A DNA stretch of 64,000 bases, taken from contig OX419760.1 of assembly GCA_948567375.1 (NCBI GenBank), positions 63,484,911-63,548,910 of the forward strand. Direction: 5' to 3'. This DNA comes from Lunularia cruciata. Lineage: Eukaryota; Streptophyta; Marchantiopsida; Lunulariales; Lunulariaceae. Position 1 is the first letter of the stretch, and every line of letters starts with the position of its first letter. The position numbers were made by a program, and so were the translations under genes. Positions 4,736 to 56,344 of the stretch are shown one piece after another. The notes under the pieces are model-generated. The model did no database searches. It was not told the DNA's origin and saw only the letters and a list, made by a program, of their open reading frames with translations.

Positions 4736-4757
4736 ATTTAGTTAGTGGTGTTGGCAC

Positions 4758-6249: not shown

Positions 6250-6938
6250 TGTGAGCCGGCCTATCTCTCACTCAAGATGAACCTCTGATGGCTATTATAG
6301 TAGCGCACCATGGACTAAGAAGGCAAGGAACCCGAACTCCATCATACTCCTCCAAGGCTAACATTCCAAGACTCAAGACATTGATCACTAGAGAACTCAA
6401 TGAGAGAGAGATAGTTGCAAATGAAAGGATGATGAGTACCTCCTCACCCCTTGTTTATATACTTGTGAAATAGTTACGTACCAAAGTTACTAATTACCGC
6501 AGTAACTCAAGTTACTAGACTAAAAGTCAAGTAAAGTCAAAAAGTAGAAAGGAATATCCATTCACATGGGCATATTCCCCTAAGCATGTGGTCTTATCTT
6601 GACCCAACCACTAAGTCAAGGATTCCTTCACATGGGCTATCCTTGGACTATAGAAGAATCCAAAACAAAAAGGCTTGCGGGCCCAAGAGTTCTCAACTCT
6701 TTCCTCAAAGCCAAATACCTAGGAATAATACCAAGTCAACACACTAAAATCCAAAATAGTGGTGCTCATCTTTTCTACTTCCTCTAAAGTAAGGTCCCCT
6801 CTATCTTAGCTATGACTAAATTTAGCTAACCATGACTAATATAGAACCATCCTTTATCTCTAAATAATATCTCTTTAAGTACTTGTAATACCAAGCTAAA
6901 TATCACAATACCACACACATGCACAAATGGGTGTTACA
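6250..6938 (-). repeat. 3' LTR of family A copy 1
   Basis: This 689-bp LTR is bounded by TG and CA on the minus strand. It is nearly identical to 13336-14021 and to 36761-37452. Short frames inside the LTR are shared by all three LTRs but look like noncoding shadows. Confidence 0.95.
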
Positions 6939-6952
6939 TTTACCCCCGGACT
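6939..6952 (-). other. Polypurine tract of family A copy 1
   Basis: Read on the minus strand the bases are AGTCCGGGGGTAAA, directly before the LTR start TGTAACACCC. A purine run in this place is the usual primer for plus-strand DNA synthesis. Confidence 0.75.
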
Positions 6953-6986
6953 AAGTTTTCACTTTGTCCTCAAAGTGAAGGTCTCT

Positions 6987-7544
6987 CTACCTTCTATGGT
7001 ACATCTTCAACTTATCATGGTTAATCCTATCAAAGTGTCTTCCTCCCAACTCCTTGAGATCATAGGTGTAATTGCCCCACACCTTCTCCACTATGAAAGG
7101 TCCAAAGTACTTAGGCAAAAACTTCTTTTGCACTCTCTTGAATTGAATGGAATCAAACAACATTACCCAATCACCTTCTTTGAAAGTCTCCACTTTCTTC
7201 TTGCCTTGCCTCTTGTGATAGCTCTCCTTTTGTTTCCTTTGGGCTTGCTCCACTCAAACCATAGCAACTGCTCTTGCCTCTTCCAACTCCATGAGTTGAT
7301 CCTTCCTTAACTTCTCTGCATCACTTCCTTGTGCTTTCTTCAATCTCCTATGAATGCTTTGGAAGGTAGGAAGATCAAAGTGAATAGGTAAGGTAGACTC
7401 AATACCATACACCAATTGAAATGGAGAATATCCAGTGGAATTCTTCATGGTTGTCATATACTTCCACAAAACTGCATGAATCCTCTTGTCCCAATGATGT
7501 TTAGCCCCCTCCATTTCTGCATCTTTGGCCAACATCATGCACAA
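6987..7544 (-). pseudogene. Integrase core and C-terminal domain, family A copy 1
   Basis: Two abutting frames (7544-7254 and 7253-6987) continue the integrase. The first matches the post-DDE-Glu part, with a VYGIE-type tract. The second has the basic linker and the GPF/Y module (YFGPFIVEKV), ending near the PPT. The lesions at 7545-7645 and 7253 are stops or frame changes relative to copy 2, where the core is open at 42726-43580. No chromodomain follows, so the protein ends with the GPF/Y module. Confidence 0.85.
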
Positions 7545-7645
7545 GGTCTGATTGGTTCTCTCTGCAAGCCATTGGAATTTGGTTTATAGGATGTAGTTAC
7601 TCTATGTGTGATAGAGAAATGTTGTAGCATGGCTGTAATAATGCT

Positions 7646-9715: not shown

Positions 9716-10192
9716 TTTCTCCTCCTTGGTAACATTTGGGCCATACTTGAGGGTAGCTAACCTCTCTCTACCTCCTCAAGTGTCAATGGTGATTTGTCTG
9801 GGTCCTTCAAAACCTCAAGCTTAGGTGCAAAATCCATAGCACACAAGGGATACACATCTGAATCAGATTCAGATTCATCCTCCTCCGTGAAAGTCTCCTC
9901 CTCCATGCTTGTGTCCACACCTGAAGCTCCTTCTTCAAAATCTGATTCCCAATAATCAAAAGATGGTGTATCTAAATGTGAAGTGTTGGTGGTGTTAGTC
10001 ACAGGAACAGTGACTCTATGGTTTGATAGCCCAATCCTCAAGTACCCTTTGTGCCATCGATCAGTTGTGCGTGCTGCTCAACCATGGCCTCCCAAGAAGT
10101 AAGTCATAGCTTGAATCCTTCAAGACTTGGAAAGTCATGAGATTTTGAACTCCCATAACTGAAACTACCACCTTATCCATCACTCCTACTGG
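9716..10192 (-). pseudogene. Protease-RT linker, family A copy 1
   Basis: An open stretch (10041-9757) is acidic (EEETFTEEDESESDSD) and joins the protease to RT. It corresponds to 40823-41068 in copy 2. The adjoining bases carry the end of the protease, with a GRPWL-like motif in copy 2. Stops separate it from both neighbours. Confidence 0.7.
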
Positions 10193-11808
10193 TCAAACTT
10201 GTTGCTTGTTTGCCATGCTCACCACAAATGTTGAAGGTCTTGAGGGTATCATACCCAACTTCTTCATCAACCTTTTTGATATGGCATTCACTGCTGATCC
10301 TCCATCAACCAATGCATCCTTGATGTTGTGACCATTCACTCTCACATCAATCTTGGAGGCATATTCACAAGCCTCCCATGGTGCTGGCTTGGCATCCACC
10401 ACCCCCATTGATATTGGAACTTTTGCCTTCTTCTTCTTCTTGCTCCTTGTAGAACTCAAACCACCTCTAAGCTCCTTTCTCAAGGTAGGATTCAAAGCAA
10501 TCAATTGGCCCACTGTGATGTTAGCCTTGTGACTACCAACATCCTCCAACACAATGTAGTTCCACTGTTGTTTTGAGATCAAGAAGTCCTCCATCCCCAA
10601 CTTCTTTCTTGGAGTCTTTGTTGTTGATGGTGTTGAGGTGCAAGTGCTCCTAGTAGACATAGGAGTATCCTTGCTTGAAGTAAATCCTTGAGAAGAGTGA
10701 ACATCCTCTGCAAAATGAGCTCTCTTCTTCTCTTGTGCCAAAAGCTCCAAATTAAGACCCTTGGAGTTTGAGCACTCTCCCTTCTCATACTTTCTCTCAA
10801 CCACATCTATGGATGCTATCCCCTTACCTTTGCTGGGATTAGGAGCCACTTGGGTTTCACTACCTCCCTCTTTCCCTCTATTGGCTCCCTCATAACCCTT
10901 TCCTCCATGGTAAGTGGAATTTGGGCAATTCCTTTGGATATGGCCTCTTCCTCCACAACCAAAACAATTTCTATCATTGAAATTGTTGGCTGGTTGGCCT
11001 CCTCTATATGGATAGTTTCCATAACTCCTAGGCCCTCTCCCTACATTCTGATCCACCTCTCTCTTCTCCCATAGTTGCACCACATTGATCTTGAGATCTG
11101 CAAGTTGTTCTATGATGGTTTGAAGTGGATCTTTTGGTGGAGGTGCAAGAACTGGAGCAACCACTACTTGTGGTGCAACCCTTACCACCAAACTATCAGA
11201 AGTTCCACCATACTTGTAGCCTTGAGGAGGATGCACAACCTCCTTCACCACCAAATCACTCTCATCCCCTTCCAAACTCTCCTCCATATGAATTGTGATC
11301 TTGATAGCTTCAACCTTGGAAGAAGGTTTCTCATATCTCACCTTGCTTCTAATTTGTGGTCTCAACCCTCCCACAAAATTCTTGTGAGCATGGCCCCTAT
11401 GCCAATCATTGTAGTCTCCACATCATCCCCACCCTTCCTCAACACTATGCAAAATCTGGACTTTAACTTTTCCACTCTTTCCACATAGACTCTCACTTTC
11501 TCTCCTTCTCCTTGCTTGAGAAATGTGACCTCACTCATCAATCTCTCATAACTCTCATCAGGAAGAAAGTTCTCAATGAGTGCTGAAATCAAAGTCTCCC
11601 AAGACTCCTCTTCCCCATCTCTCCTCTCTCTCTTTTGGTATTCTGACTCATACCATGTAAGTGCTGCATCCTCAAAGAAATCAGGTAATAATGAGGCCCA
11701 CTCATTCTTCCTCCTCTCATTGTTTCCTATGCAAGCTCTCTTGAAGTCTCTCACAAAGGCCTCCACATCTTCTCCATCCTTGCTAAAGAAAACCGGAAGT
11801 TTTCCCAT
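10193..11808 (-). pseudogene. gag-protease, family A copy 1 (frameshifted)
   Basis: Capsid is encoded at 11808-11362, then the frame shifts near 11370 and continues at 11374-10193. Copy 2 keeps this part as one frame (39019-40650), so the break is copy-specific. A CCHC knuckle lies at 10925-10966 (CFGCGGRGHIQRNC). The retropepsin active site reads LVDGGSAVN near the end. The start at 11808 is chosen because copy 2 begins at the same place with a similar N-terminus. Confidence 0.88.
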
Positions 11809-12085
11809 CTTAACCCCTCACTATCTTTCTTTTCTCTCAAATTTTTTTTTCTTTTCTCTCACTCTATTACTAATAGAGTATATACATGACTAACACCATC
11901 TGAGAATAATCCACTCTAGGGAACACAAAAGGTTCAGGTTGCTCCAAGATTTCTATAACAACATCAAATCCTAGAGTGCATATTAATCTAACTCTCATGG
12001 ATAGTTTATCCATGAGTTGAAAGATTATCTCCATCACTAATCTTGAGAACTAGTTGATGAAGGTGGTAGTATTTCTGTAGCTCTA

Positions 12086-12511
12086 CTAAGACTCTCTCCA
12101 AAATCTTTCACCAAAGTTTCCCAAAAGTGCTTTTACTCCACTACACTCATGTCCTTTTGGAAGTCCTTCCATTCCACAAACCTCACACAACTCCTTGGTC
12201 TTAGATCTTCTCCCTCCTAATCTTGGTGAAGAAGGTCCAACATGCAAACCCAAGTCAAGTAAGCCTCTCCTTTCCCTCAATCTCTTGCTCTCAAAGGTCA
12301 ATGGACATGAACTTGCCTTATGTCCCTTCTCTCCACACAGAAAGCACTTAGACTCACTCTTTCCTCCAAGTGGTGTAGGTTTCTGGATCCTCTCAACACT
12401 CTCTTCAAATTCTATTGTAAACTCTCTTTTCCTCAAATCCACCCCTACAATCACCTCAAACCCTTGGGAAACCTTGCATAATCTCAATTTCCACTCTTGA
12501 TGACCCTCCAT
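12086..12511 (-). CDS. Extra zinc-knuckle ORF upstream of gag, family A copy 1
   Basis: This 141-codon ORF lies between the leader and gag, where most Gypsy elements have no gene. It holds a perfect CCHC knuckle at 12305-12346 (CFLCGEKGHKASSC) and a second Cys/His cluster near the C-terminus (CEVCGMEGLPKGHEC). The middle is basic. Copy 2 has the same ORF (38311-38724) with few changes, mostly conservative. Function is unknown. RNA or DNA binding is plausible from the knuckle. It could be an accessory Tat/Ogre-like ORF1 or a detached nucleocapsid module. Confidence 0.75.
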   Translation of the reverse strand: MEGHQEWKLRLCKVSQGFEVIVGVDLRKREFTIEFEESVERIQKPTPLGGKSESKCFLCGEKGHKASSCPLTFESKRLRERRGLLDLGLHVGPSSPRLGGRRSKTKELCEVCGMEGLPKGHECSGVKALLGNFGERFWRES

Positions 12512-13312
12512 GTTCCCAAGATGAATCTAAACACTCAAACATGTTTTTTGTTGATCTCAAACTCCTCATGCATGAGATCTCCACTCTGCAGAATTGACCC
12601 TTCCCTAGAATTTGACACACTTGATCACAACTCTAGGGCATCCATCCCTGCAAAATTTCAGATCTTTTCATCAAGCCATTTGGCCTAGACACCTTTCTAT
12701 TTAGCACATAAATTTCAGATTTGGTCTGAAAACCACCCCCTTCACTTCAAAAACTCATTACTCCCTGCGCAAGAACGATCTCTCTCTAATTTTTGTGGCA
12801 GCAGGTAGGATACAATGCACTAAATTTTCTTATAAATTTTCAGAACAATTCACTGAAAAGTGAAGAAATGGCAGACTCTGTACAATTTTCCAAAGATCAT
12901 GCAGTTGCGGCAACACTTTACCCTATCAACTTTCAAAAATTCTAGCCCAGTGCGCATAGAAGCTCTCACAATAGTTTCAAGTGTTCTAACTGAAAGATAA
13001 CCCAAGCTATCATGTGTAGAAATCTCAAGTCTAGATCTCAAACTTGAGATTTTGCCCAAAATCACCTTAATCCTCAAAATCTGCAATCCACCTCACACAA
13101 TCTTTCCAATTCCTCTCATGTGTACAAGATGTACAAAATCACCTCAAAGATATCATAATGAACTACAAATACAAATGGTATACAAATGGATCTTGGTTCT
13201 CTAACATAAGTTCAACCATCTCTTCTCCTAATGTTCTCTCCAAGTGAGCTCTCATAGCTTCCTTCTGCCTAATGTAGAATTGAATGCGGAACATTATCTT
13301 GCCTTCTAGAGA
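12512..13312 (-). other. 5' leader of family A copy 1
   Basis: Untranslated leader between the PBS and the extra ORF, collinear with 37476-38310 in copy 2. A short frame beginning at about 13293 on the minus strand is similar in both copies but is broken here. Confidence 0.6.
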
Positions 13313-13331
13313 GGTCCGGGCAACGGAACCA
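13313..13331 (-). other. Primer-binding site of family A copy 1
   Basis: Read on the minus strand the site is TGGTTCCGTTGCCCGGACC, four bases after the LTR end. Copy 2 has the same site at 37457-37475 with one change. It resembles plant Gypsy PBS sequences of the TGG-CGCCGTTGCCGGGG class. The exact tRNA was not matched. Confidence 0.65.
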
Positions 13332-13335
13332 AAAA

Positions 13336-14021
13336 TGTGAGCCGGCCTGTCGCACTCAGGATGAACCTCTGATGGCTATTATAGTAGCACACCATGGACT
13401 AAGAAGGCAAGGAACCCCAACTCCATCATACTACTCCAAGGCTAACATTCCAAGACTCAAGACATTGATCACTAGAGAACTCAATGAGAGAGAGATAGTT
13501 GCAAATGAAAGGATGATGAGTACCTCCTCACCCCTTGTTTATATACTTATGAAATAGTTACGTACCAAAGTTACTAATTACCGCAGTAACTCAAGTTACT
13601 AGACTAAAAGTCAAGTAAAGTCAAAAAGTAGAAAGGAATATCCATTCACATGGGCATATTCACCTAAGCATGTGGTCTTATCTTGACCCAACCACTAAGT
13701 CAAGGATTCCTTCACATGGGCTATCCTTGGACTATAGAAGAATCCAAAACAAAAAGGCTTGCGGGCCCAAGAGTTCTCAACTCTTTCCTCAAAGCCAAAC
13801 ACCTAGGAATAATACCAAGTCAACACACTAAAATCCAAAATAGTGGTGCTCATCTTTTCTACTTCCTCTAAAGTAAGGTCCCCTCTATCTTAGCTATGAC
13901 TAACTTTAGCTAACCATGACTAATATAGAACCATCCTTTATCTCTAAATAATATCTCTTAAATACTTGTAATACCAAGCTAAATATCACAATACCACACA
14001 CATGCACAAATGGGTGTTACA
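13336..14021 (-). repeat. 5' LTR of family A copy 1
   Basis: This 686-bp LTR is nearly identical to 6250-6938. It is followed at 14022 by the GGCC target duplication and by resumed element Z sequence. Confidence 0.95.
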
Positions 14022-14449: not shown

Positions 14450-14924
14450 TGTTTTGGTGTCATGGGGATCATATGGTCTTGAGAATGCTTCGGGACCTAG
14501 CTGCTTGCACCTAGGCTTTACAATTCAAGATGGTACAAGTGGCATGCATTAACTCTAATGGATGGGTTGTGAATTGTCAATGAGTACCAAACCTATACAA
14601 AGAACCTACTATTGGGTTTCCTTTATTTCTTCTTGATTGTGGCAACTGATGCCATGTGCTCCAATTTCATTATCAAAGCTATCATTTGTAAAGCAATGTG
14701 CATGTTGAAGGTTTCCAAATTCTTCCTTCTTACCCTTATGCCTTGACTTGACGGTATTTTTGTCACATGATACAATGTTCTATGCTTTAGACATACCAAA
14801 CTTTCAGAAGTTTGTGCTCTTTGATCTCAAGGAGCACAAACTTCTCTGTGTCATTGTCAAGAATTATAATTGAAAGCATGAATACACTTTGTTTGACGAT
14901 GACACAATAGAATAAGTAAAGGAA

Positions 14925-15188
14925 TTGATAGTAGTTAGACCCGAAGTAAGAGAGATAGGAGTGCATGTGTCTTTGGATTTGACATTTGACACTTTAGAGA
15001 AGAGTGGGTTGGGAGATAGAGATTTAGAAGGCTTAATTATGATAGGAATTGCAGATCAAGAAGGAGAAGTGTTAGAATTAGTGGATGAATTGGGAGTTGT
15101 GAAACCCGATGACAGAATATTAGGAAGTAAAGTTACTTCGGGTTTGGGTTTGAAAGCCGATGACAAGGTAGACATCAGATCGGAGTAG
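14925..15188 (+). pseudogene. C-terminal piece of the family C LTR-borne ORF
   Basis: Eighty-seven open codons, acidic, with the conserved tracts FDTLEKSG and VKP followed by an acidic tail. The homologue at 59499-59741 is very similar, and more distant versions end the ORFs at about 52158 (plus) and about 35640 (minus). No known domain is recognised. The real start lies upstream and is missing from this fragment. Confidence 0.55.
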
Positions 15189-15302
15189 TAACAATTTTGA
15201 GATTTGAAGAGGCAGATCTGAAGAGGTGCATTGTCATTTCGGATCTGCAGGTTAGAAGAGTTGTTGTAGAACGGTATAGTTGTTAGAACTATCGATTTGT
15301 TC

Positions 15303-15313
15303 ACTATTTAAGA
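15303..15313 (+). promoter_or_regulatory. TATA-like element of the family C LTR
   Basis: CTATTTAAGAG is conserved here and at 59931-59941. It lies after the LTR-borne ORF, which places that ORF in U3. Promoter function is inference. Confidence 0.5.
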
Positions 15314-15985
15314 GTGGCATTTGTAGGAAATTGTTGTTTAATGCTCATAATTTTTGAGAATAGATAAAGCGAAGTGTTGTGAAGCAGTGCTCGTCACTTG
15401 AGCTTGATTCCGAGTATCAACTTTGTGTTTGTGTTTGTGTTTGTGAGTGTTTGGAGAAATTCAAAGTGCAAGTCAGTGTGTTTGTTGGATGTTGGATTCC
15501 ACAACCTTGATCTTCATTCTGTGTATTTGATCCTGAGTGAAGTGCAATCAAAGCAATGCCTTGACAGATCGGAGAGGAATTGTAGTGTTGGTAGTATTTT
15601 GCATTTGAGAGTGCAGTGCAAAGTTGATGTGAAGCAATTTCGATCAAGGAAGTTGTGCCTTCAGTGGAGGGGTGGAACACAATTCTGAGGCAAAGTAGTT
15701 TTATAGTGAAGTGCCATTTTTGGGAGAGCCTGAATCATCACAATCAAGATTGTTTGGAAAGATTTGATGGAGTTGTGATTATGGAGTGTTAATTTGTGAC
15801 AAGACTACAAATCAGTGCTTGTTATTCTCTTTTGGGTGTGGTTTCTACCTGAGAGATTAAAGACGCAACCACAAAGAACTAAATTGTTACTTTGACTTTG
15901 TATTTGACCAATTCTGACTCATATCTCTACGGGAACAAACTTTACTTACCCGATTACCACAAAAGTGATATTTGCCTGGTTGTCA

Positions 15986-16209
15986 TAGTATTTCATAGTT
16001 CTCTCTTGCAAACTCACATACCATTCATTGCAATGCAAAGGAAGAAAAGCACTTGCAAAAGCTCAAGAATGGATCAAAATAAGAATTCAGTTCACAATAA
16101 GGCCTATCAACCAATTTTCCTCAAACATCGGTTCCAACAAATCAAGATTCACTCATGCCATCTCTTCACTTCTCAATTCTTTGGTTTCAAGCCTCATTAG
16201 AATTTGCTC
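15986..16209. other. Unassigned block of the mosaic insertion
   Basis: Follows the family C LTR end. Short open frames occur, but no domain or homology within the window was recognised. Confidence 0.3.
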
Positions 16210-17460
16210 AGACTAATATTGATCTCTTAGTTTGTCTCTTCATATCATCCCTGACTATTCTTTTGATTACTTTCCTTTCACTATCAAAGATTCCTGAACT
16301 CTCCTTGATCTTTTCCTATCTCTAAAACCCTTTGATACTTCCCTTGTCACTCCAAACTCCTTTTGATCCTTTCTTGACTTTTCTTTTCCTTCTCGATCCT
16401 TCACTGTTCTCTTCTCTTTTCAATCCTTCACTCTTTCACTAAAACTCCTCTCGATCCTTCTCCTCTCTATCTCAATCTTTCCAGTCAATCCCTTCACTAT
16501 TACTTCCTAAAGAGTCTTCTTGCCAATTCCTTCAAGGTCACTTCCCAAAGAGCCTTCTTGCCAATTCCTTTCACTGTCATTTCCCAAAGATTATTCCATT
16601 CGATACTTGTCACTCCAAAACCCTTGATTCCTATTCTCTCCCAAAAACTCATTGATCATTCCCTCGTTACCTCTCTATCCTTCCAAACCTCCTTCAATAC
16701 TTCTTTCTTCTTGCAAAGACCTTTCCTGATTCTTTCTCTTTGTTCAATGCCTATAGACTCTTGAACTCCTTTTGATCTTTCTCTTCTTCAATACTTTTTT
16801 GTCATTCAAACTCTTTTGATACTGCTCTGCCTTTCCAAAATCCTTTTGATACTTCTCTCCTTCACTATCTTCTCTCTTCCTCAATATCCCTTCCTACCAA
16901 CGCTCTCCTGAATTCTCTTCCTACCAAATCCTTGATATCTCACTATCCTACAAAACCCCAAACCTCTTGATACTTCACTTCCTATCCAACCTTCTTTGAG
17001 AGTTCACTGTTCTAGCCAAGACTCCTTCCTTTCAATATTTCTTGCTGTCTTGCAAAACCCCAAACCTCTTGATACTTCACTTCTTGTCCACCCAACTCTC
17101 TTGATTTCCTCTTGTCGATCCTTCTCTCTCATGCACTCTCTTGATTCCTCAAAACTCCTGCTTTTGTTCCTATCAATTCCTTTCTCCTTCTTTCCCCTAT
17201 TGCTGCTACATTCTTGTCACTCATTTTCTCTTGATACTTTGATTCCCTTGTCACCAAAACTCCCTTCAATCTTTCAGTGTCATCCCAAACTCTCTTTTGA
17301 TTCTTCTCTCCCTTGTTACTTCTTTTTCTTGTTCAACCGCTTCTCCTTTGAATCCTCAAAACCCTCTCTTTTTGTTGAATTCCCTTTGATCCTCTCTCAT
17401 TCCCATTTGTCTCAATGATTTTCTATCATTCCCCTTTTGCTTCAGCTCATCATGCCTTCT
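16210..17460. repeat. CT-rich degenerate repeat tract
   Basis: About 1.25 kb of strongly pyrimidine-biased plus strand. It is built from irregular repeats around the phrases CTTTTGATACTTC, CCTTTCAATCC and CTCTTGATTCC. Units are about 25-50 bp and degenerate. Serine- and leucine-rich frames in the tract are a consequence of composition and are not called as genes. Confidence 0.7.
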
Positions 17461-17990
17461 TGTCCTATACAGATTGCTAACACTGAATCTCTTGAAGACC
17501 TTGACCTTGTGGTTGCTAAGTCTTGTTTGTCATTGTCTACCTTTTCTGCACTAAGTTGCCTGTTTTCTAGTTGATCTTTTTCTTCCTTCTTTCTTCTCCT
17601 TGTCTTTCTTTTCTTCTCCACTCTTGAGAACTTTCTCCTTCTTCTCCTTTATAATAACACAACAAAACTCCCACAACACATCCAACTCAGAAACATTACA
17701 GCCCTTGCCTCAAATATTTTACATGCTCCAAATTTGCTACCACTACTCTTTTATCAACTCCCAAAATTCTTGGTATAGTCTAGCAAAAGCGGCTATCTAC
17801 AACATATAGCAAACCCCACTATTTTGGCAACTATCAAAATTAAAGTTCATGCAAATACTAAAATTTACTATTGGAATCCAAAAGTATTTTCTACAACTAG
17901 CACTTTTACTAATTCTAAATAATTTTCTCCTAGTTTACCTACCATACTAAATAGTACTAATCTAGCATATAGATTATTTTCCCATCAACA
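17461..17990 (-). repeat. LTR-like end of the mosaic insertion
   Basis: AT-rich stretch whose minus-strand reading starts TGTTGATGGG at 17990. A TATA-like TTATTATAAAG is near 17650. No second copy is in the window, so LTR status is a guess. Confidence 0.35.
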
Positions 17991-18867
17991 ACAGTTGGCT
18001 GCCATGCTTTGGGAGAGTAGGGATGATGTGGGCCCTACTACTAGAGTAAAGGTGGTTGATAGTGAAGCTAATTTGGTTGAGGAGCAGGTGATCCACTTAG
18101 CGACCAGTGGTTTATGGCAAGCAATAGCATCTAGATTGGAGGAGCTACCAACTAGACCAGCCTTTGATTGAGCAAGGTTTACACTTGAGGTAAATAACTA
18201 GAGGGGGATTTCTTGGTTGGTTGGACCTTAAGGGAAGGTTTATATACCATAGAGGGTCTTATTAGACTTTAGTGCATAGCCCCTTATGTTGGGGAAGGCT
18301 GTAGTTGTTGGTCTGGAGTTACGAAAGACTGATGTAGAGATGTGTCCATTTTAGATCCAAATATCTCTAGGTGGTGGTTCTACATAGTACATCACATGTG
18401 GAGATTTGGTTGTTCAAATTCAGCCCAGTCATCTGACTGATAGTTCTATGGTGAGAGCTCAGGCCATTGCAACCATAGTTGAGTTGTATGATGTGTTAGT
18501 TGGGGGAGTAGTGTTGTACCCCATGGGTTTCAATATTGACTATGGGGAGGAGATAGCATCTTATAGACCAAGTTGGCTGTCTGATGAGAGACAAGTATGT
18601 CGTCTACTAGTACGCTTCAGTAGTGGTAGTCTTGGCTCACTACAATCCGAGACCATGGCGGCTTCAATTTCTGCTTTCAATGGTTTTGTTACTTGGTCTG
18701 GTCATTTATTAGAGGGGAACATCCATACAAAGGATACTCCAATACTAGAGGAGATCACTTGGATTTGGAGTATGAGTGAGATTGTTCCATCCACCTTGGA
18801 TGTTCCATTATGGAGTTCAAAGGAAGGATTGCAGCAACATGCAGATCAATTGGTGCAACATGCTTAG
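17991..18867 (+). pseudogene. Retropepsin-like protease region of element Z
   Basis: Element Z resumes here. An LDFSA motif at about 18264-18280 lies in the place of the D-T/S-G-A active site. The 153-codon open frame 18406-18867 continues it, with the YDVLVGG and LYPMGF motifs typical of the C-terminal half of Gypsy proteases and then an IASYRPSW segment. The role would be polyprotein cleavage. The active site is decayed. The tail (residues about 70-150) leads into the methyltransferase and is repeated at 24205-24480 in Z2. Confidence 0.6.
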
Positions 18868-18879
18868 AGTGGAGCCTTT

Positions 18880-19960
18880 GTACCACTATGTGACCAGTGT
18901 GAGGATGAGCCTCCAGAGTTGATTACCTTGACACCTCTTGATACCACACTCATTGCTTGGCAATATCCAATAGAGGGAGTATGTTTATTGCAGTTGCTTG
19001 GTAGGATTAGCATTGGACTAGTTGTGGTACTACATCTAGGTATACGAGTATAGAGATACTTGTATGTGGATAGAGATGAGATTGTTAGGTGAGTCCCTCT
19101 ACACCATATGGCACACTTGGCTTACTGATATCCTAAATTATTATTGATGTCAACAATCAGAATTACCAAAAGGCCCTACTAGCAAACATTTCCTTACTTG
19201 GTGCACATGATCTGGAGAGACACGAGCCTATTCATTTGGTGATTTCTGGATGGCCATGTCAAGGACATACACATGCTAGCCAAGGTTTGGGTCTTCAAGA
19301 TGCCCATTCTAGTGTGTTTTGGGAGATATTACATATACTACGACATCTCTAGGTCATCAATTTGTTTCTCTAGCTTACATTTTGGAGAATGCTCCTTTGA
19401 TGGGTGATTCTTGCACCCAGGTGGTGGTGAGTACACATCAAGTCCATTCTTGGATGGGACCTACCATGTTGTTAGATGCAACCAGAGTGGGATCACAAGC
19501 TCATCATCTTCATTTATGGTAGATGAACTTCTTACCTAGAGAGATTCTATAGCGTGCTTATGATAGGATTCAATGACTAGACCACATCATTATCGATGAC
19601 ATCTTGGATGTTGGGTGCTAGTCTCAAACGGTGGTAGTGGTTGATAGGTCACTTATGGTAGTGGTAAACCTAGTTGGACAGCCCAGAGCCGATTTTCCCA
19701 CACTTATGTGTTTCCTATGCTCCCATGCTTTTTGAGAGGGAGGTCTTGGACTGGTTTGGGACTCACAATTACAATAGTTGGTGGAGTCCAACACCAATGA
19801 GCAAGAGCAGGCAATTGGTTTTTGCACTAGTATTACTATTGTTCCAATAGTGTTAAAAGCATCCAAGTGTTAGGTGTTAGGTCAGGCTATAGACTTGAAT
19901 TATTTGACATGAGCCTTGGTTTGGTAGAGCAATATAAGATGTGCTTGATAGACATCACCA
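18880..19960 (+). pseudogene. C5-cytosine DNA methyltransferase domain of element Z
   Basis: The domain would methylate cytosine in DNA using S-adenosylmethionine. Motifs appear in the canonical order, sometimes after frame changes or stops. Motif I is decayed at about 18985-19020 (LLQLLGRISIGL, compare LFGGISTGL in Z2). Motif IV is at 19247-19285 (GWPCQGHTHASQGLGL), with the catalytic Cys codon at 19256-19258 intact. Motif VI, LENAP, is at about 19381-19395. The TRVGSQAHHLHLW stretch at about 19480-19520 stands at motif VIII. The motif IX-X region includes QPRADFPTLM and VLGQAIDLN, ending near 19905. It sits between protease and RT. Stops make it inactive here. Confidence 0.82.
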
Positions 19961-20289
19961 CTTGGACACTTGTGAGCTCTGTGCCTATTGAGATGATTCA
20001 AGCACATGTTAGGGGTGATGGACTGAGTAGGTATGGTATTCTTGGGACACAACTAGTGGCTACTAGGAAGAATGATCTACTTGGAGTCCATCTAGGTGAG
20101 CGTAGTCTACTTAGATTACACCCTTGGTCTACTTGGGATGCAACTAGAGCTACTTGGGAGCTTGCAACCATATGAGAGAGAGTTTTTCACACTAAGGTTG
20201 GGACCTTCAGTGCTTGGGGGCATGACACTACTGCTCCCAAGGTCCCAATGTAGTAGCCAATCAATATGTCTTCCACTCTTACAATAATT
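19961..20289 (+). pseudogene. Linker between methyltransferase and RT of element Z
   Basis: The open frame 19867-20175 spans the end of the methyltransferase and a linker with short internal repeats (LLGVHLG, LLRLHPW). It is repeated at 25502-25777 in Z2. No domain was recognised. Confidence 0.5.
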
Positions 20290-21720
20290 ACAGAGGATAT
20301 TTGGGAGCTAGATCTTGGACCCAAGCTTACAAGAGAGGAAAGACAGAGAGTTTAGAGGTTCTTGAGGAGGTACACAAGTTGTTTTGCCTTTAGTATGAAG
20401 GATTTGGTGATCTAAAAAGATTTGGTATTTGGATTGAGCTTACTAGCAATACACCAATTTTTCAATGTCCCTACAAATATAGTGACATGGAATGAGCATT
20501 GATTTAGACCCAAAGTAGTGAACTTTTTGAAGCTGGTTTGGTGGAGATTTCACATGGAGAGTATACATTAGCTATAGTGATGTCAGTCAAGAAGGATATG
20601 CATGGCAACTACACAAATAAGCAGATGTGTGGAGATTACCATCCTATCAACCAACATACTAGGGTTGATCAGTATGCCATGCCTACACCGGAGGAGATCT
20701 TTGATGCAATTGGGCATGCAAAGGTCTTTAGTACTTTGGATCTTCAAGTAGGATATCATTAGTTGCCAATCAGAGAGGAAGATAAGTCCAAGACAACATT
20801 TTGGGCTATTGATCCTCATAGTAGGGATGTGTTATATCACTAGAGGTTCTTACCATTTGGGTTAAAGAATAGTTTTGCTGAGTTCCAAACGGTCATGGAT
20901 AGGATCCTATTTGGATTAGATTTTGCTTGGTGTTGTATAATGACATTTGAGTCTATAGCACTATTGTGGAGGAGCATGAGAGACATTTGTTGGAGGTGTT
21001 TGAGAGATTTAGATCTCATGGACTCAAATTACATCTTGGGAAGTGTAGGTTTTTCCACAAGCAGGTTGAGTATTTGGGTCACACTATCTACTCTGGAGGA
21101 CTTGGTGTCAAATAGACCAAGGTGGAGGCTATTGCATGTATTCCTTGGCCTACGGCTGTGAGTAGAGTGCAAGCATTCCTTGGGTTGGCAAAATTCTATT
21201 GTTGCTATGTTAGAGGATTTAGTGCCATTCCCAAGGCCTTGACAAAGCTGACCAAGCTTACACAAGAGTGGCGTTGGGGAGATGAGTAAAAGAGAGCTTT
21301 TGTAGAGCTCAAGGAGAGGTTGACATCTGCTCCTATTTTGAGGAGACTGAGTAGAGGACAACCATTTTAGGTTCACATTGATTGGAGTATGTTGGGGCTT
21401 GGAGTAGTGCTCACCCAACATGATGATGAGGAGAAGGAGTTTATGGTGGCCTATGCTAGTTGCTCCAACAATTCAGCAGAGACAAATTATAATTCATATG
21501 AGAGAGAGTGCTTGGTAATAGTATGGGCAATAGCACATTTCTGATGTGACTTATCTGGTAACCCTTTTACTCTCACTCACTGATCATTAGCTATTGAAGT
21601 GGTTGATGGAGTCCGACAAGCTTTCAAGGAGCTTGCACAATGGGCTCTAATTTTATAAGAGTATGATTTCACAATATTTATAGACCTAGAGTGGTGAACC
21701 GTGATGCAAATGGGTTCAGT
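20290..21720 (+). pseudogene. Reverse transcriptase and RNase H of element Z
   Basis: RT begins near LGPKLTREERQ (about 20310). Open piece 20538-20762 has the motifs MCGDYHPIN, AMPTPEEIFDAIG and FSTLDLQVGY. PFGLKN follows at about 20856. The catalytic YxDD region (about 20930-20960) is broken by a one-base frameshift: the bases ATGACATT remain, but the reading gives CCIMTF. The connection and RNase H follow (about 21360-21600, with LGLGVVLTQ and VAYASCS). Z2 lacks the RT core but keeps a better RNase H. Confidence 0.85.
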
Positions 21721-22019
21721 AGAAACCCATGTCTTAGCAGCAAGATGAAACTGGAGCACATTGGCATGGTGAGACAGATGAGGAGATAATGCCAAGTTGG
21801 CACACATCTGCCTTTCTTTGTATATTTTTTGAGGCTTTGGTGGTATCTCTCTCAATGCATATAGGAGGAGTTATTGAGGTCATAGATCTGGAGAGTGGAG
21901 ATAGTGGTCAATTTAACAAGACATTCATGATGACGTCTTAGTGATGGACTATCTTCTCACTGGTGTTGTGGGTGGTACAATTGGAGCCAAAGAGAGAGAT
22001 TATGTCCTTCAACAATCCT

Positions 22020-23215
22020 TCAACAATCCTTCAGTTTAGATTGGAAAGCAATCCTTCTTCGTGTAGAGGAGGATGGTAGAGTGAGAGTAGTAGCACTTCT
22101 ATCTTGGAGACCACAATTGGTCCATCATGCTCATGAGGAGCTAGGACATTTTGGAGTAAACCGTACATATATTTTACTTTAGAGTCATTATTGGTGGCAC
22201 GGTATGCAAACCAATGTAGAGCAGTTTGTTGCCATATTTATGGTTTGTGACCGAGTTAGAGCATCATTTAATGCTCCTACACTATAGTTACACCCATTAC
22301 CTATCATTGGATTGGATTACCGCTAGAGTTTGGACTTTGTTGGACCTTTACCATTGACTATGAGACATCATTCAATACATTTTGGTGATGGTGGAGCACC
22401 TCTCTAAGTGGATTGAGTTTGTGGCACTTCATGACAAGTGAAGGGACAACCTACTTATTCCTAGATTGGGTTCTTAGTCATTTTGGTGCACCAACTGAGG
22501 TTTTGACTGATCAAGGTACAAAGTTCTTGGAGGAGTTTCAGGTCTTGTGTGACAAGGTTTTGATTGATCATCATACTACCTCTCAAGATCACCCTAAGGC
22601 AGATGGCTTAGCAAAGAGAGTGGTTCAGACAATGAAGAGAGGATTGCAAAAGGATGGTTTGCAGAGAGGCCACTTGGGAGATTAGGATCTCTTGTTACCT
22701 TGGTTGGCCATGGGCTATTGGTTCAGCCGGCAAGCCTCCTTAGCATCCTTCACTCCTTACTTTCTACTCAATGGACAAGATCTAGATGTACCTATAGCCA
22801 TTTATCAAGATGCTATTGTTGTTTTGGACTTGGATGATCCAGATGTATGGATGAGCGCATGTTCTCAACAAGAAAAGATCTTTTGGAGAGTGATGTTGAT
22901 GGCCTTTGAGACTTTGGCAATTCCTCAACATAAGGATACCTTATGTTATGCTACCATTTATGGAAGAGGTTATAGATCCTTGATCTGTCAATTTCATCTA
23001 GGTGACTATGTTTATCTATAGCAGACAACACTGATGACACTTGATGTTTCTATAGGCCACTCTATCTTGAGAGTGCATGAGGTTTGCCATCTTGAGTCCT
23101 TGTGTTGGAAGGACATGATGGTATTTTTTGGAAGGATCATGTGTGCAATTGTGTGTTGTACTACCTCCCAAACATTGATAATACTATGGACCCAAGCTTG
23201 GCACTGGTACATGTA
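22020..23215 (+). pseudogene. Integrase of element Z
   Basis: The HHCC region is at about 22120-22270 (HAHEELGHFG, then MVCDRV; one Cys appears lost). The core has FVGPLPLT at about 22340 and VLTDQGTKF at about 22500. The glutamate position reads ADGLAKRVVQT, so the catalytic Glu is replaced by Lys (about 22610). A long open run 22413-22685 and 22692-23021 holds the rest of the core and the C-terminal domain. The protein then continues into the PHD finger through the segment around ILRVHEV (23070) and LEGHDG (23103). Confidence 0.85.
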
Positions 23216-23224
23216 GGCTTGCGG

Positions 23225-23359
23225 TGTATGTTATGTGGCTCTTCTAGTGGAGTTGCTACTATGTTAATGTGTAATAGCTATTTGAGAAGATGGCATATAG
23301 CATGTATGACTCCTCCCTTCATGGTGGTTCCTCAGGGACAATAGTTATGTCCTAGATGT
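23225..23359 (+). pseudogene. PHD finger at the integrase C-terminus of element Z
   Basis: A C4HC3 zinc finger of the type that reads histone H3 tails. The visible ligands are CMLC (23225-23236), then C at MLMC, the fourth ligand changed to Tyr (MCNSY), HIAC, and LCPRC at the end (Cys codons 23348-23350 and 23357-23359). The usual Trp two residues before the seventh ligand is a TAG stop here, one base from TGG. The spacing C-x2-C-x11-C-x2-(C)-x4-H-x2-C-x14-C-x2-C fits the family. Z2 keeps the fourth Cys, so the two copies support each other. It occupies the place of the chromodomain in chromoviruses. Confidence 0.82.
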
Positions 23360-23531
23360 ACTTAACCTATAGCTAGTTCATCCTTTATATGGTATAGATT
23401 GCAGGCAAGCAACTAACGATGGGGCTCAATAACACTCAACCTCATGATCTTTTTTCCACCATAGGGTATACTATATATTTGGAATAGATGGATATTTGGA
23501 GTTAAGAGGGACATAACCACCAGCTAGGAGG
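23360..23531 (+). other. 3' untranslated region and polypurine tract of element Z
   Basis: Noncoding stretch after the PHD finger. It ends with AGCTAGGAGG directly before the LTR start TGATTGTGGC; the matching place in Z2 reads AGCTAGGGGGG. Confidence 0.65.
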
Positions 23532-24088
23532 TGATTGTGGCACTTTAGAATTCACGTATCACTTATGTGTGAGTTGTGCTTCTATAGTGTATGATGCTAA
23601 CAATGATGTATGTTGTATAGCAATGTATATATACACAAAAAATATCATGCCATTTGTAGCGTCGCATCTAGATTGCTTGGACATTGGAGTAGCAATGATA
23701 GTAGTTAGAGGTATTTTGGCAGTTACCCATAGATTACTTTCTAACGGTCAGATTTTGTGTTTAGGGTATTGACTACATGGTAGGACCCACCATCACTTGC
23801 ACCATTTGTACCATTGGGTGTGCCGTCAATGGGGCACTGGGGTGAGACCTAGGTCAAATTCAGGAGTATACCTTGAGAACAGAGAAGTGGGCTCCAAAGA
23901 GCTCACTTCTCTATTGTTGAGTTCCTAGTTAGAGGGGACAAAAAGCCGGCGAGCGTTCACTTGGAGTCTCTTACCTAGAGTGGATGTGACTTGACTATAA
24001 TCAATGCCCAATTGTTAGCATATTACTGAATGACAAATTAAGTATTGATCTATTGAGTGTGGTTTGAGTTGTGTAAGTAAACTGATTA
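23532..24088 (+). repeat. 3' LTR of element Z
   Basis: Starts TGATTGTGGCACTTTAG (23532; TGTGG at 23536 is the alternative start) and ends in CTGATTA at 24088. Its second half matches 1-319. A second LTR start follows directly at 24090. Confidence 0.8.
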
Positions 24089-24188
24089 TTGTGGCACTTT
24101 AGAGTTCATTTATGACTTATATGTGAGTTGTGCTTCTATAGTGTATGATGTTGATAGCAATGTATGTTGTATAGCAATGTTTATATGC

Positions 24189-24479
24189 ATGATAGGTGAG
24201 GGAAAAGTATGTCACCTACTAGTACACTTCAATAGTGGTAGTCTTGGTTCACTACAATTTGGGACCATGGTGGCATCAATTTAAGCTTTTAGTGGTTTTG
24301 TTACTTGGCTTGGTGACTTATTGGAGGGGAATGCCCATGTAGAGGATACTCCAATACCAAAAGAGATCACTCAGATTTTGAGTACAAGAGGGATTGTTCC
24401 ATCCACCTTGGTTGTTCCATTGTGGAGTTCATAAGAGGCATTGCAGTAGCATGCGGATCACTTGGTGCAACAAGCTTGG
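24189..24479 (+). pseudogene. Protease tail, Z2
   Basis: Collinear with 18596-18880 of Z, containing a VCHLLVHFNSGSLGS-like tract. Several stops. Confidence 0.55.
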
Positions 24480-25580
24480 AGTGGAACCTTTGTACCACCA
24501 AGAGACCAATGTGAGGATGAGCCTCTAGAGTTGATTACTTTGATACCTCTGGATACCACACTCATTGCTTGGCAGTATCCAATAGAGGGAGTATACCTAT
24601 TGGAGTTATTTGGTGGGATTAGCACTGGACTAGTTGTGGTACTACAAGCAAGTATACAAGTACAGAGGTACTTGTATGTGGAGAGAGATGAGACTACTTA
24701 GTGAGTCTCTCTACATCATGTGGCACACTTGGCCTATTGTTATCTTGAGTCATTACCAATGTTAGTAGTCAAGGGTTACCAAAAGAACCTATCAACAAAC
24801 ATTTCCTTGCTAAGGGTGCAAGATTTGGAGAGACATGGTCCCATTCATTTGGTGATTTTTGTATTGCCATGTTAGGGACATACACACATTGGCTGAGGTC
24901 TAGATCTTGAAGATCCCTATTTTGGTGTGTTTTGGGAGATGTTATGGATACTACGACATCTCTTGGTTCATTAGTCCGTTTCTCTAGCTTACATTTTGGA
25001 GAATGTCCCTTTGATGGGTGATTCTTGCACCTAGGTGGTGGCAAGTACACATCAAGTCCATTCTTGGATAGGACATACCATGTTATTAGATGTAGCTTGA
25101 GTGGGATCATAGAGTATCATCTTTGTTTTTGGTTAACAAACCTCTTACTTAGAGAGGTTCTACAACATGCTTATGATAGGATTAAGCGACTTGACTACCT
25201 TATTGTTGACGAGATTTTGGATGTTGGACACTAGTCTCAAACAATGGTAGTGGCTGATAGGTCACCTATGGCAGTGGTGAACCTAGTTGGAGAGCCCCAA
25301 GTTGTTTTTTCCACACTTATGAGTTTCCCAAGCTCTCAAGCTTTTCAAGAGGGAGGTCCGGGACTTGTTTGGAACTCATAGTTATAGTAGTTGGTGGAGC
25401 CCAATGTCAATGAGAGAGAGCGGGCAATGGATTTTTGCATCGGTATTATGGCTATTCCAGCAGTGTTAGAGGCATCAAAGCATTGGGTGTTGGGTTAGGC
25501 TATGGATTTGAACTATTTGACTAGGATTGTGAGCCTTGGCTTGGTAGAGCAACATAGGATGTGCTTGATAGGCATCACCA
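24480..25580 (+). pseudogene. C5-cytosine DNA methyltransferase domain, Z2
   Basis: Second copy of the Z methyltransferase. Motif I is better preserved here (LLELFGGISTGL, about 24598-24633). Motif IV keeps the catalytic Pro-Cys at 24867-24872, but the following Gln codon is a stop. Motif VI is the canonical ENV (24999-25007) in YILENVPLMGDS. The region after motif VIII is open at 25025-25234 in one frame. The late part shows VVNLVGEPQV, STLMSFPSS, EGGPGLVW, NERERAMDF and AMDLNYLTR, matching motifs IX-X. Reading the two copies together leaves little doubt about the family, although each is dead. Confidence 0.85.
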
Positions 25581-26182
25581 CTCAAACACCTATAAGCTTT
25601 GTGCATATCAAGACAATTCAAGTACATGTTGGAGGTGATGGACCAAGTGGACAAGGTATTCTTGGGACACAAACAATGGCTACTAGGGAGAGTGGTCTAC
25701 TTGGAGTCCATCCAAGTGAGCATGGTCTACTTGGATTACACCTTGGTCTACTTGGGATGCAACAAGTGCATGTATGAAGCTTGTAGCTAGATTAGAGGGA
25801 GTTTTTCACACAAAGGTTGGGACTTCTAGTGGTTGCAAGCATGGTACTACTGCTCCCAAGGGCCTAATGTAGCAATCAATATATCTTCCACTCCTTTGAT
25901 AGTTACAGAGGATACTTGGGAGCCAGATCTTGGACCTCAGCTTACAAGAGGAGAAAGATGAAGAGTTTGGAGGTTCTTGAGGAGCTACATGAGTTGCTTT
26001 TCCTTCAGTATGAAGGATTTAGGTGCTCTAAACGGACTTGGTATTAAGATTGAGTTGACTAGCAATACATCAATTTTCTAACGTCCCTATCAATATAATG
26101 ACATGGAGAGAGCACTAATTTAGAGCTGAAGTAGAGACCTTTTTGAGGTTGGTTTGGTAGAGATTTCACATGGAGAGTATGC
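25581..26182 (+). pseudogene. Linker and N-terminal RT fragment, Z2
   Basis: Collinear with 19960-20570 of Z. It stops after the HGEY motif at about 26180, where a deletion joins it to the post-catalytic RT region equal to 21036 of Z. The RT active site is absent. Confidence 0.7.
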
Positions 26183-26960
26183 ATCTTGGGAGTGTAGGTT
26201 ATTCCACAAGTAGGCTGAGTATTTGGGTCACACTATCTACCTTGGAAGACTTGGTGTTCAATAGACCAAGGTAGAGGCTATTGCACATATTCCTCAGCTC
26301 ATGAATGTGAGCAAAGTATGAGCATTCCTTGGGTAGGTGAACTTCTATTACCAATATGTTAGAGGATTTAGTGTCATTACCAAGGCCTTGACAAAGCTGA
26401 CCAAGATTACACATGAGTGGTGTTGGGGAGATGATTAAAAGAGAGCTTTTGTAGAGCTCAAGGAGAGGTTGACAGTTGCTCCTATTTTGAGAAGACCAAT
26501 AAAAGGATGACCGTTTCAAGTTCACACTGATTGGAGTATGTTGGGGCTTGGAGTAGTGCTCACCCAACTTGATGATGAGGGGAAAGAGTTTGTGGTGGCC
26601 TATGCTAGTTGCTCCAAGAATTCAGCAGAGGGGAAGTATAATTCATATGAGGGAGAGTGCTTGGCAGCAATACAAGCAATAGCACATTTCCAATGTGACT
26701 TATTTGGTAACTCCTTTACTCTCATCAATGATCATCAACTATTGAAGTGGTTGATGGAGTTTGACAAGCTTTAGAGGAAGCTTGCACAATGGGCTCTGAT
26801 TTTAAAAGAGTATGATTTCATGTTTATTCATTGACATGGAGTGGTGAATCATGATGCAAATGGGTTGAGTAGAAACCCATGTCCCAGCCAGCATGATCAG
26901 ACCAAAGCATGTTGGCATGGTGAGACAAATGAGAAGATGGTGCCAGGTTGGCATGCATCT
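26183..26960 (+). pseudogene. RT connection and RNase H, Z2
   Basis: The connection subdomain (EYLGHTIY-like) is followed by an open RNase H piece (26538-26774) with LGLGVVLTQLDDEGKEF, VAYASCSKNSAEGKYNSYE and NDHQLLKWLM. The catalytic acidic pattern is partly visible. A stop separates it from the C-terminal HDANGLSRNP motif that closes Gypsy RNase H. Confidence 0.8.
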
Positions 26961-27099
26961 ACCTTTTATGCATATTTTCTAAGGCTTTAGTGGTATCTCT
27001 CTCATATAGGAGGAGTTATTGGAGTCATAGATCCAAAGAGTGAAGATAATGGTGTAGCTTAGTGAGACATTCATGATGATGTCTTAATGATGGACTATT

Positions 27100-27760
27100 T
27101 TTGCATTGGTGTTGTGGTGCCACAATATGCAGATTGATGTACAATAGTTTGTTGCCAAATGTGTGGTTCATCATATCATGTTCAATGATATGATGAGTGG
27201 TTTGCAGAGAGGCCACTTGGGAGATTGGGATCTCCAATTACCTTGGTTGGCCATGAGATATTGGTTGAGCTGGCAAGTCTTCTTAGCATCCTTCTCTCCT
27301 TGCTTTCTACTCTATGGACAAGATCCAGATTCACTTATAATCATTTGTAAAGATGCTATTGTAGTTTTGGACTTTGATGATCCACATGTATGGATGAGCA
27401 CATGTCCTCAATGAGGAGAGATCTTTCGGAAAGTGATGCTGATGGCCTTTGAGAACTTGGTAATTTCTCAACATAGGGATACCTTATGCTATGCTACCAT
27501 TTATGGAAGAGGTTATAGACCCTCGATCCATTGATTTCATCTAGGTGGCTATGTATATCTATAGCAGATAGCACCCATGACACTTGATGTGTCTATAGGC
27601 CGTACTATTTTGAGAGTGCATGAGGTTTTTCTATTTGGAGTCCTTGTATTGGAAGGACATGATGGTGTTGTTTGGAAGGATGATGTACGCAATTGTGCAC
27701 CATGCCACCTTCCAAATATTGATGGTACTATGGACCCAAGCTTGGCACTTGTATTGTAGG
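27100..27760 (+). pseudogene. Integrase remnant, Z2
   Basis: The HHCC region and the catalytic core are mostly deleted; the join lies at about 27120-27195. The open piece 27163-27414 matches the last third of the core and the C-terminal domain (SGLQRGHLGDWDLQLPWLAM). The frame 27577-27759 leads to the PHD finger with LEGHDGVVWKDDVRNCAPCH. Confidence 0.75.
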
Positions 27761-27767
27761 CTTGTGG

Positions 27768-27901
27768 TGTATGTTATGTAGCTCTTTTGATGGACATGCT
27801 ATTATGTTAGTGTGTGATAGTTGTTTGAGAGGATAGCATTGGCATGTATGACTCCTCTCCTTATAGTGGTTCCTCAAGGATAGTAATTATGTCCTAAATG
27901 T
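27768..27901 (+). pseudogene. PHD finger, Z2
   Basis: Ligands seen are CMLC (27768-27779) and LVCDSCLRG with both Cys present, including the one changed to Tyr in Z. After a stop and a small frame change come HWHV and the final Cys pair near 27890-27901. This supports the PHD call in Z. Confidence 0.7.
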
Positions 27902-28059
27902 ACTTGACCTATAGCTATTTCATCCCCTATAAGATATAAATTCTAGATATGCAACTAATAATGAGGCTCAATAATACCTAACCTCTTGATCTTTAGCCCA
28001 ACATAGGGTATACCATATACTTGGAGTAGATGGCTATATGGAGTTAGAGGGACCTAATG

Positions 28060-28190
28060 GCCAGCTAGGGGGGTGATTGTGGCACTTTAGAATCCATGTA
28101 TGACTTATGTGTGAGTTGTGCTTCTATAGTGTGTGATGTTGACAACAATGTATGTTGTGCAATGAGGTATATATGCAAAAAAATGTCTCA
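28060..28190 (+). repeat. PPT and truncated 3' LTR of Z2
   Basis: AGCTAGGGGGG is followed by TGATTGTGGCACTTTAG at 28074. LTR similarity ends near 28190, where Copia sequence on the other strand begins. Confidence 0.75.
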
Positions 28191-37452: not shown

Positions 37453-37475
37453 TTTTTGGTTCCGTTGCTGGGACC

Positions 37476-42720: not shown

Positions 42721-42725
42721 GGGCA

Positions 42726-56306: not shown

Positions 56307-56344
56307 TATTCCCCCATTGCTAGTTGGTGACATCCTTGTCGCCA

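Follow-up and report, generated by a model that had tools for sequence, protein, structure and literature searches.

The window examined here is a stretch of 64,000 nucleotides of the liverwort Lunularia cruciata (C10:63484911-63548910; the searched host genome comprises 565.8 Mb in 74 contigs), and it carries two nested, dead copies of one abundant Ty3/Gypsy retrotransposon, an outer and an inner one. A preliminary description, made from the letters of the window, had placed a C5-cytosine DNA methyltransferase (DNMT) between the protease and the reverse transcriptase (RT) of such an element, and this was confirmed at 18916-19909 on the + strand, in the inner copy. The DNMT domain of a relative from the same genome matched this interval in three frames (tblastn, E=2.7e-126) and matched a second DNMT, belonging to the outer copy, at 24528-25567 (+ strand, two frames, E=6.2e-129), while the best value from 20 dinucleotide-shuffled windows was E=0.37. 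In a PF00145 profile search, the open piece 19137-19352 was recognised with 22.4 bits against a cut-off of 22 (E=9.9e-5); the other nine window pieces searched alongside it gave no match. Motif IV (GWPCQGHT) and its catalytic Cys are present as described, with the Cys codon at 19257-19259 (+ strand, from the sequence and the tblastn alignment), one base later than claimed. LENAP is indeed motif VI, with V changed to A, and motif I is present but damaged, reading LLQLLGRISIGL. As the DNMT domains of the inner and outer copies contain 10 and 12 in-frame stops and two and one frame changes, respectively, neither window copy is able to make an enzyme.

The window was mapped by blastn onto a well-kept relative element from the same genome, and element coordinates given here are those of that relative. 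The stretch 18880-19960 corresponds approximately to element 4590-5675 and lies within one alignment that spans the protease to the 3' repeats. Positions 17994-24192 align as one piece with element 3695-9915 (84%), so that the flanking protease and RT belong to the same element, as had been stated, and RT, integrase and PHD finger follow the DNMT within this alignment. Since protease to PHD aligns with the relative as one piece, the order protease-DNMT-RT is right. The protease region of the inner copy (approximately 18220-18610, + strand, projected from the alignment) was recognised by alignment, and its catalytic DSGA reads DFSA by eye at about 18266. RT and RNase H, both decayed, are projected from the alignment with the domains of the relative to approximately 20540-21730 (+ strand). 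The decayed integrase (approximately 21880-22750, + strand; rve match in 22389-22685, E=0.002) and the PHD finger remnant (23225-23320, + strand; PF00628 in 23096-23341, E=0.009) scored, taken alone, 18.7 and 16.5 bits, below the Pfam cut-offs of 32.6 and 24.

The order of element coordinates along the window leads us to infer that the inner copy was inserted into the outer one. The 5' half of the outer copy (2-3842, + strand, blastn) contains part of repeat A1, gag and the start of the protease (element 95-4118), and its 3' half (24195-28177, + strand, blastn) corresponds to element 4293-9355 with deletions. The inner copy (3844-24195, + strand, blastn) lacks A1 at its 5' end and is broken by two later insertions. 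A count of three copies was considered and dropped, because ordering the element coordinates gives one outer and one inner copy.

A chance match, or a host DNMT gene inserted separately into a Gypsy element, might be suspected from the broken window frames and the weakness of the PF00145 matches alone, but this is practically dismissed by the shuffled windows, the one-piece alignment, the genome matches and the DNMT adjoining protease and RT in 15/15 fetched ten-kb copies. PF00145 does match, and the DNMT region belongs to the element rather than being a separate insertion. The earlier reading of a DNMT-bearing Gypsy element is therefore supported, with the corrections that the window copies are pseudogenes, that the enzyme is of the DNMT3 type and that a stop separates DNMT from RT.

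Among 2161 candidates from the PF00145 profile search of the genome, 123 were scored, and a protein search with a 371-residue query scored 110 of 14,284 first-look candidates, on nine contigs. Each of the 110 scored matches is at least 95% identical to the query and covers it from residue 4 or earlier through 371; they lie in open frames of 446-1448 amino acids, some with 1-5 internal stops. The two lists share 19 entries and together give about 210 places, a few of which are not shown to be the element. The genome thus holds at least 110 copies of the element with a near-complete DNMT. The junction from terminal repeat B to repeat A (B|A; 27 nt, at most three mismatches) occurs 2,036 times in the genome, with no occurrence of the backwards control; this number counts junctions, broken copies included, and says nothing on DNMT content. 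All copies were found through the DNMT, and copies without it would have escaped notice. Fifteen stretches of about 10 kb were read; they were picked from the PF00145 list, in part because their open frames are long, so that their preservation is above average and every one bears a DNMT. Family copies with the proposed order gag-protease-DNMT-RT-integrase were found in 15/15 of them.

In these 15 copies, the complete domain order is gag-protease-DNMT-UAG-RT-RNase H-integrase. The Pfam search of one relative returned RVT_1, RNaseH, H2C2 and rve in the RT-RNase H-integrase order that defines Ty3/Gypsy elements; the integrase is of the rve type, and no Phage_integrase (tyrosine recombinase) match was found in this relative. 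The first frame encodes gag with zinc knuckles, protease and DNMT, with 1428 codons from stop to stop in several copies. The second frame, in phase with the first and beginning after the UAG, encodes RT, RNase H, integrase and a C-terminal PHD finger, with 1037 codons from stop to stop in two of the copies listed. The UAG between DNMT and RT was present in 19/19 copies, and in 18/19 it was followed by CARYYA. CAR YYA is a known plant readthrough signal according to the consulted part of PMC2754532, and the conserved UAG CARYYA would accordingly be a leaky-stop signal of the tobacco mosaic virus type. The inner window copy keeps the UAG at 20251-20253 (+ strand), and TAGCCA follows it, with CAG decayed to TAG. 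Among 17 Marchantia-type proteins (Marchantia, Sphagnum, metagenome), 11 end within about 145 amino acids of the DNMT, without RT, two of the 11 being labelled partial. DNMT and RT stand in one frame in Closterium P0038 and P0066 and in Klebsormidium P0077.

The PHD finger after the integrase scored 42.6 bits with PF00628 in the relative. It was found in all 14 of the 15 ten-kb copies that reach that far, with all eight zinc ligands kept, and its best solved relatives are the PHD fingers of CHD4 and KMT2D. A chromodomain at the integrase end was considered and rejected: the Pfam search of the relative gave no such match and placed PF00628 there instead.

When the DNMT domain was compared with PDB chains by phmmer, DNMT3A (8.6e-12) came first, then DNMT3B, and DRM2 (0.01), HhaI (0.02) and DNMT2 (0.04) were far weaker; a 28-row profile gave 4e-23 for DNMT3A. 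Judged by its sequence, the element DNMT is of the DNMT3 type. Assignment to MET1, CMT or DNMT2 was rejected, since no chain named MET1, CMT or DNMT1 was among the 54 PDB matches and DNMT2 reached 0.04. In the genome copies, motifs I, IV (PCQ), VI (ENV), VIII and X, aligned to DNMT3A, occur in unrearranged order. The catalytic Cys and the E and N of ENV are kept in 39/39 copies, one of which has a stop right after the Cys; this retention is a biased figure, because the copies were found through this very domain.

Selection was assessed on counts that leave out CG and CHG transitions, with a variant called shared when it occurs in at least three copies. In the DNMT (39 copies), shared variants were 6 nonsynonymous to 20 synonymous and singletons 97 to 39 (Fisher p=7e-6). 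In gag, protease, RT, RNase H, integrase, integrase C-terminus and PHD pooled (15 copies), the corresponding values were 4:25 and 95:65 (p=4e-6); taken per region, five of nine non-DNMT regions, with 0 to 2 shared variants each, are uninformative singly. These counts show purifying selection on the DNMT, which the source lineage kept, somewhat less strictly than gag-pol, and free decay of copies after insertion. Before CG and CHG transitions were left out, the shared DNMT variants looked weak (nonsynonymous to synonymous 48:43), which we interpret as the result of recurrent CG/CHG deamination.

The repeats of the element are arranged as A1-coding-B1-A2-B2, and this order was whole in 13/15 copies, with A of about 447 and B of about 110 bases and A1 shortened in one copy; in the remaining 2/15 the 3' side is broken or lies beyond the stretch. 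Across 13 copies, A1 and A2 differ at 89 of 4621 positions. None of the 15 copies has its own B beside A1, so that the complete long terminal repeat (LTR) at both ends that is used to define Ty3/Gypsy elements is lacking; by its repeats the element is an atypical Ty3/Gypsy member, with A alone 5' and B-A-B 3'. The element ends in TG..CA, and 4-bp target duplications flank 10/12 copies with both ends in hand, being absent from L013 and L024. A purine tract, CTAGGGGGGCG or a form with one or two changes, stands directly before B1 in 14/14 copies examined, and B1 meets A2 at the palindrome GACAGCTGTC or a close variant of it. In the inner window copy, B1 (23534-23631) is preceded by the polypurine-like CTAGGAGGTG, and A2 (23645-24087) and B2 (24088-24195), the 3' end of the copy, follow; B1 of the outer copy lies at 28076-28177 (all on the + strand).

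The two junctions behave differently. At B|A, a 2-nt spacer was found in 100/100 listed of 639 occurrences, 99 of the 100 on one chromosome. At A|B, an insert was found at 133 places; the 100 listed comprise 84 single bases (A 36, T 30, G 15, C 3), five of two bases and 11 of at least 3 nt. Among these 100, 10/11 of the inserts of at least 3 nt are ACA, ACATC or ACATCA, exact prefixes of the sequence after A1. Two arrangements of copies were also seen at these ends. Copy L033 starts 16 bases past the B end of another copy, an insertion beside an older one, and a tandem row of A-B units lies beyond the window at C10:35904669-35905821, where three A|B junctions are spaced 562 bases from one another.

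The arrangement A-coding-B-A-B is that of a two-LTR circle, with LTR = B-A, opened between B and A, and a circle model was built on this. The LTR as synthesised would be B-A, with the polypurine tract just before B1, and with A1 followed by a presumed primer site. The linear complementary DNA (cDNA) would circularise at A|B into a two-LTR form, which the integrase would open at the other junction, at the palindrome GACA-GC-TGTC between B and A, giving A-coding-B-A-B. The TG..CA ends, the 4-bp duplications and the A|B scars carrying post-A1 nucleotides suggest such an integrase-driven insertion from a circle. Several points weigh against it. A|B was exact in 12/13 copies examined, so that joining would have to be mostly precise. 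The T inserts (30 of the 100 listed) match neither primer site nor polypurine tract, the recurrent A|B inserts could be inherited, and no TGG-type primer site was found after A1, nor any transfer RNA (tRNA) primer match by eye.

The same order could also arise without a circle, by linear reverse transcription of an RNA that runs into B2, with B2 copied from the parent. The exact A|B in 12/13 copies would fit this, as would A|B inserts that recur and could be inherited by subfamilies. Nevertheless, the inserts of at least 3 nt consist nearly always of post-A1 nucleotides (10/11 among the 100 listed), B|A has a constant length (100/100 listed), and the polypurine tract precedes B1, not A2; copying from the parent would leave the asymmetry between A|B and B|A unexplained. 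We consider the linear route unlikely, although it keeps an appreciable share of the probability.

The remainder of the window holds further repeats. The first of the two insertions in the inner copy is a Gypsy element without DNMT (6250-13951, - strand; arms 6250-6867 and 13350-13951, open reading frames), foreign to the DNMT element and used as outgroup; a second copy of it in opposite orientation lies at 36835-43580, 91-98% alike in the compared pieces. The second insertion is an alignment gap at 14454-17993, with the strand unassigned. A repeat of about 0.85 kb within it (14893-15729) recurs near the window end (59518-60349), 86-93% alike. Direct repeats at 56281-57018 and 63016-63743, 82-83% alike and 6.7 kb apart, are possibly the LTRs of another element. 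The + strand is strongly pyrimidine-biased at 16001-18000 (GC skew -0.56), where TTCTTGTC-like runs occur.

Taken together, we consider it probable that this is a high-copy liverwort Ty3/Gypsy element with its own DNMT3-type DNMT, which a leaky stop would place at the Gag level, which would insert by way of a circle and which would mark its own cDNA. The presence of the DNMT, the domain order, its conservation, the selection, the leaky-stop signal and the termini were read from the sequence. Most ribosomes would stop at the UAG, making Gag-protease-DNMT the main product, and RT-integrase-PHD would be made by readthrough. The DNMT would then enter the particle at the Gag level and methylate the new cDNA or circle; the copy would thus already carry its mark on entering chromatin, with the PHD finger holding the integrase to nucleosomes. 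A pre-silenced insertion would be less harmful to the host and so allow copies to accumulate. Readthrough, DNMT in the particle, circle, cDNA methylation and PHD targeting are the steps that we infer. A stricter form, in which circularly permuted proviruses come from a two-LTR circle cut by a DDE integrase at the palindromic LTR site, methylation takes place in the particle before integration and the PHD finger guides the element to chosen chromatin, is a tentative proposal that falls somewhat short of even chances.

Several observations stand against this explanation. Six of the 17 Marchantia-type gene models (P0004, P0006, P0009, P0011, P0016, P0022) continue into RT or integrase, and no PHD finger was found in those Closterium proteins whose sequence extends to the end of the integrase (P0042, P0046, P0066, P0070). 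In the nine non-DNMT regions, singleton transitions were found at 96/302 CG, 132/528 CHG and 80/1785 CHH sites, a spectrum suggesting that the copies were methylated at CG and CHG, without indicating by which enzyme. In the DNMT region (39 copies), singletons fell on 8/72 CG, 32/128 CHG and 48/338 CHH sites, with no CG excess. The DNMT of the corresponding element of the charophyte Klebsormidium nitens, KnitGypsy-Dnmt3, a DNMT3 in a Gypsy element, was without activity in yeast, a result that its authors call inconclusive in the consulted part of their paper (de Mendoza et al. 2018, PMC5890265).

The enrichment of singleton C-to-T changes at CG and CHG outside the DNMT makes the copies seem methylated in the germ line, and this leads to an alternative, that the DNMT is a self-brake that methylates the chromosomal copies of the element, lowers transposition and so spares the host. 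A slowed transposition rate is raised by de Mendoza et al. in the part of PMC5890265 consulted. However, host enzymes would leave identical marks. CpG observed/expected was 0.48 in one well-kept copy and 0.13 and 0.09 in the window copies, but other old window sequence is equally CpG-poor (0.11). The Gag-level position, moreover, fits action in the particle better, and we hold the self-brake to be a minority reading with some substance. Less probable still is that the DNMT serves another purpose, such as RNA methylation or packaging, for which the catalytic core is kept. The K. nitens domain showed no DNA activity in yeast (PMC5890265, in the part consulted), which would agree with such a role; but the nearest solved relatives of the liverwort domain are DNMT3A/B, which act de novo on DNA, with a much weaker match to DNMT2, the tRNA enzyme.

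The descent of the domain was followed in a DNMT tree of 63 rows, consisting of 43 of 81 element matches (those with near-complete domains), six host copies and 14 DNMT3-like rows, and made without animal DNMT3, DRM, dinoflagellate or other DNMT family sequences. A branch with 100/100 support separates the 49 element DNMTs, whose sources are a chlorophyte, charophytes, bryophytes and metagenomes, from the 14 DNMT3-like rows. The host copies group with Marchantia, Sphagnum and P0003 (100/100), and Closterium forms a group with 100/99; four rows have long branches, and the order among the main groups is without firm support. The DNMT of the liverwort element groups with those carried by elements of Marchantia, Sphagnum, Closterium and Klebsormidium, and by this tree it shares common descent with the K. 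nitens DNMT. An RT tree of 25 rows, with only one DNMT-free Gypsy in it, recovered the Closterium, bryophyte and metagenome groups and placed P0041 apart from the other Klebsormidium-type rows. An element of the liverwort line might instead have captured a host DNMT3 independently, as a new acquisition outside the charophyte lineage, and separate acquisitions are described for dinoflagellates and charophytes by de Mendoza et al. (PMC5890265, part consulted). This is made very improbable, and a fresh capture from the host DNMT3 largely refuted, by the 100/100 branch between the 49 element DNMTs and the 14 DNMT3-like rows, among which is L001, the canonical DNMT3 of this genome. A DRM-like host gene, L002, was named by eye.

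The metagenome group, to which the chlorophyte Monoraphidium also belongs, has its DNMT downstream of RT; the Monoraphidium neglectum protein P0078 is a Gypsy polyprotein whose DNMT falls in one clade with the other element DNMTs. The metagenome polyproteins P0023-P0037 have the DNMT between RNase H and integrase, and the Pfam order, checked for P0023 and P0037, is RT-RNase H-DNMT-integrase-PHD. The DNMT was either moved within Pol or placed twice. Scans of viral contigs found no relatives of the element.

DIRS/PAT elements have split direct repeats in an A-coding-B-A-B order, an inferred circle and a tyrosine recombinase; unlike them, the liverwort element has a DDE (rve) integrase, TG..CA ends and 4-bp target duplications. 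Chromoviruses are Ty3/Gypsy elements with a chromodomain, a chromatin-reading module, at the integrase end, and the liverwort element has a PHD finger in its place. The preliminary description knew of no standard land-plant Gypsy lineage with a DNMT; a charophyte precedent exists (PMC5890265, part consulted), and with relatives in Marchantia and Sphagnum the element is not unique to this genome. As far as the consulted part of PMC5890265 goes, KnitGypsy-Dnmt3 resembles the liverwort element in a DNMT3-type DNMT within the polyprotein of an LTR Gypsy element, in purifying selection, in the DNMT clade and, by the figure legend alone, in a DIRS-like repeat order with Gypsy domains; its authors report fewer copies, compared with a junction count of 2,036 here. 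K. nitens P0077 shares the DNMT-RT-integrase order but, unlike the liverwort element, runs DNMT into RT in one frame with no stop, and the K. nitens proteins, which are partial, have no PHD. The hosts also differ, a charophyte and a land plant. The DNMT domains of Marchantia polymorpha (59-72%) and Sphagnum fallax (50% identical over the aligned part; among P0001-P0022) fall in the same clade (100/100), and most of the proteins examined end before RT, like the first frame of the element. At NCBI these relatives are called hypothetical proteins, and no description of them as transposon DNMTs was found.

SymbioDIRS-Dnmt3 of dinoflagellates likewise has a DNMT3 in a retroelement Pol and split repeats, with a tyrosine recombinase instead of a DDE integrase and, per its authors, a separate origin; its domains were active on CG in yeast (PMC5890265, part consulted). 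DNMT3-carrying LTR Copia and DIRS elements are mentioned for streptophytes and dinoflagellates in a 2025 paper (PMC12344493, part consulted). No land-plant DNMT retrotransposon was described in the titles and abstract openings of the open-access literature searched. The DNMT-bearing Gypsy kind is already known from algae, and its occurrence in a land plant and its copy number are apparently new, as are, apparently, the leaky stop that puts the DNMT on the Gag side, the PHD finger at the integrase end and the integrase-type ends with junction scars.

The circle as an integrase substrate is an idea given up for retroviruses, and through the repeat order and the junction scars the question whether a DDE integrase accepts a circle can be put to the test in sequence data. 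If a leaky stop places the DNMT at the Gag level, the particle is where to look for its action. With relatives in Marchantia, a laboratory plant, the function of a transposon-borne methyltransferase becomes testable. If the stricter form proposed above is true, a transposon that sets its own epigenetic state would have been retained in land plants all the way from algae to liverworts.
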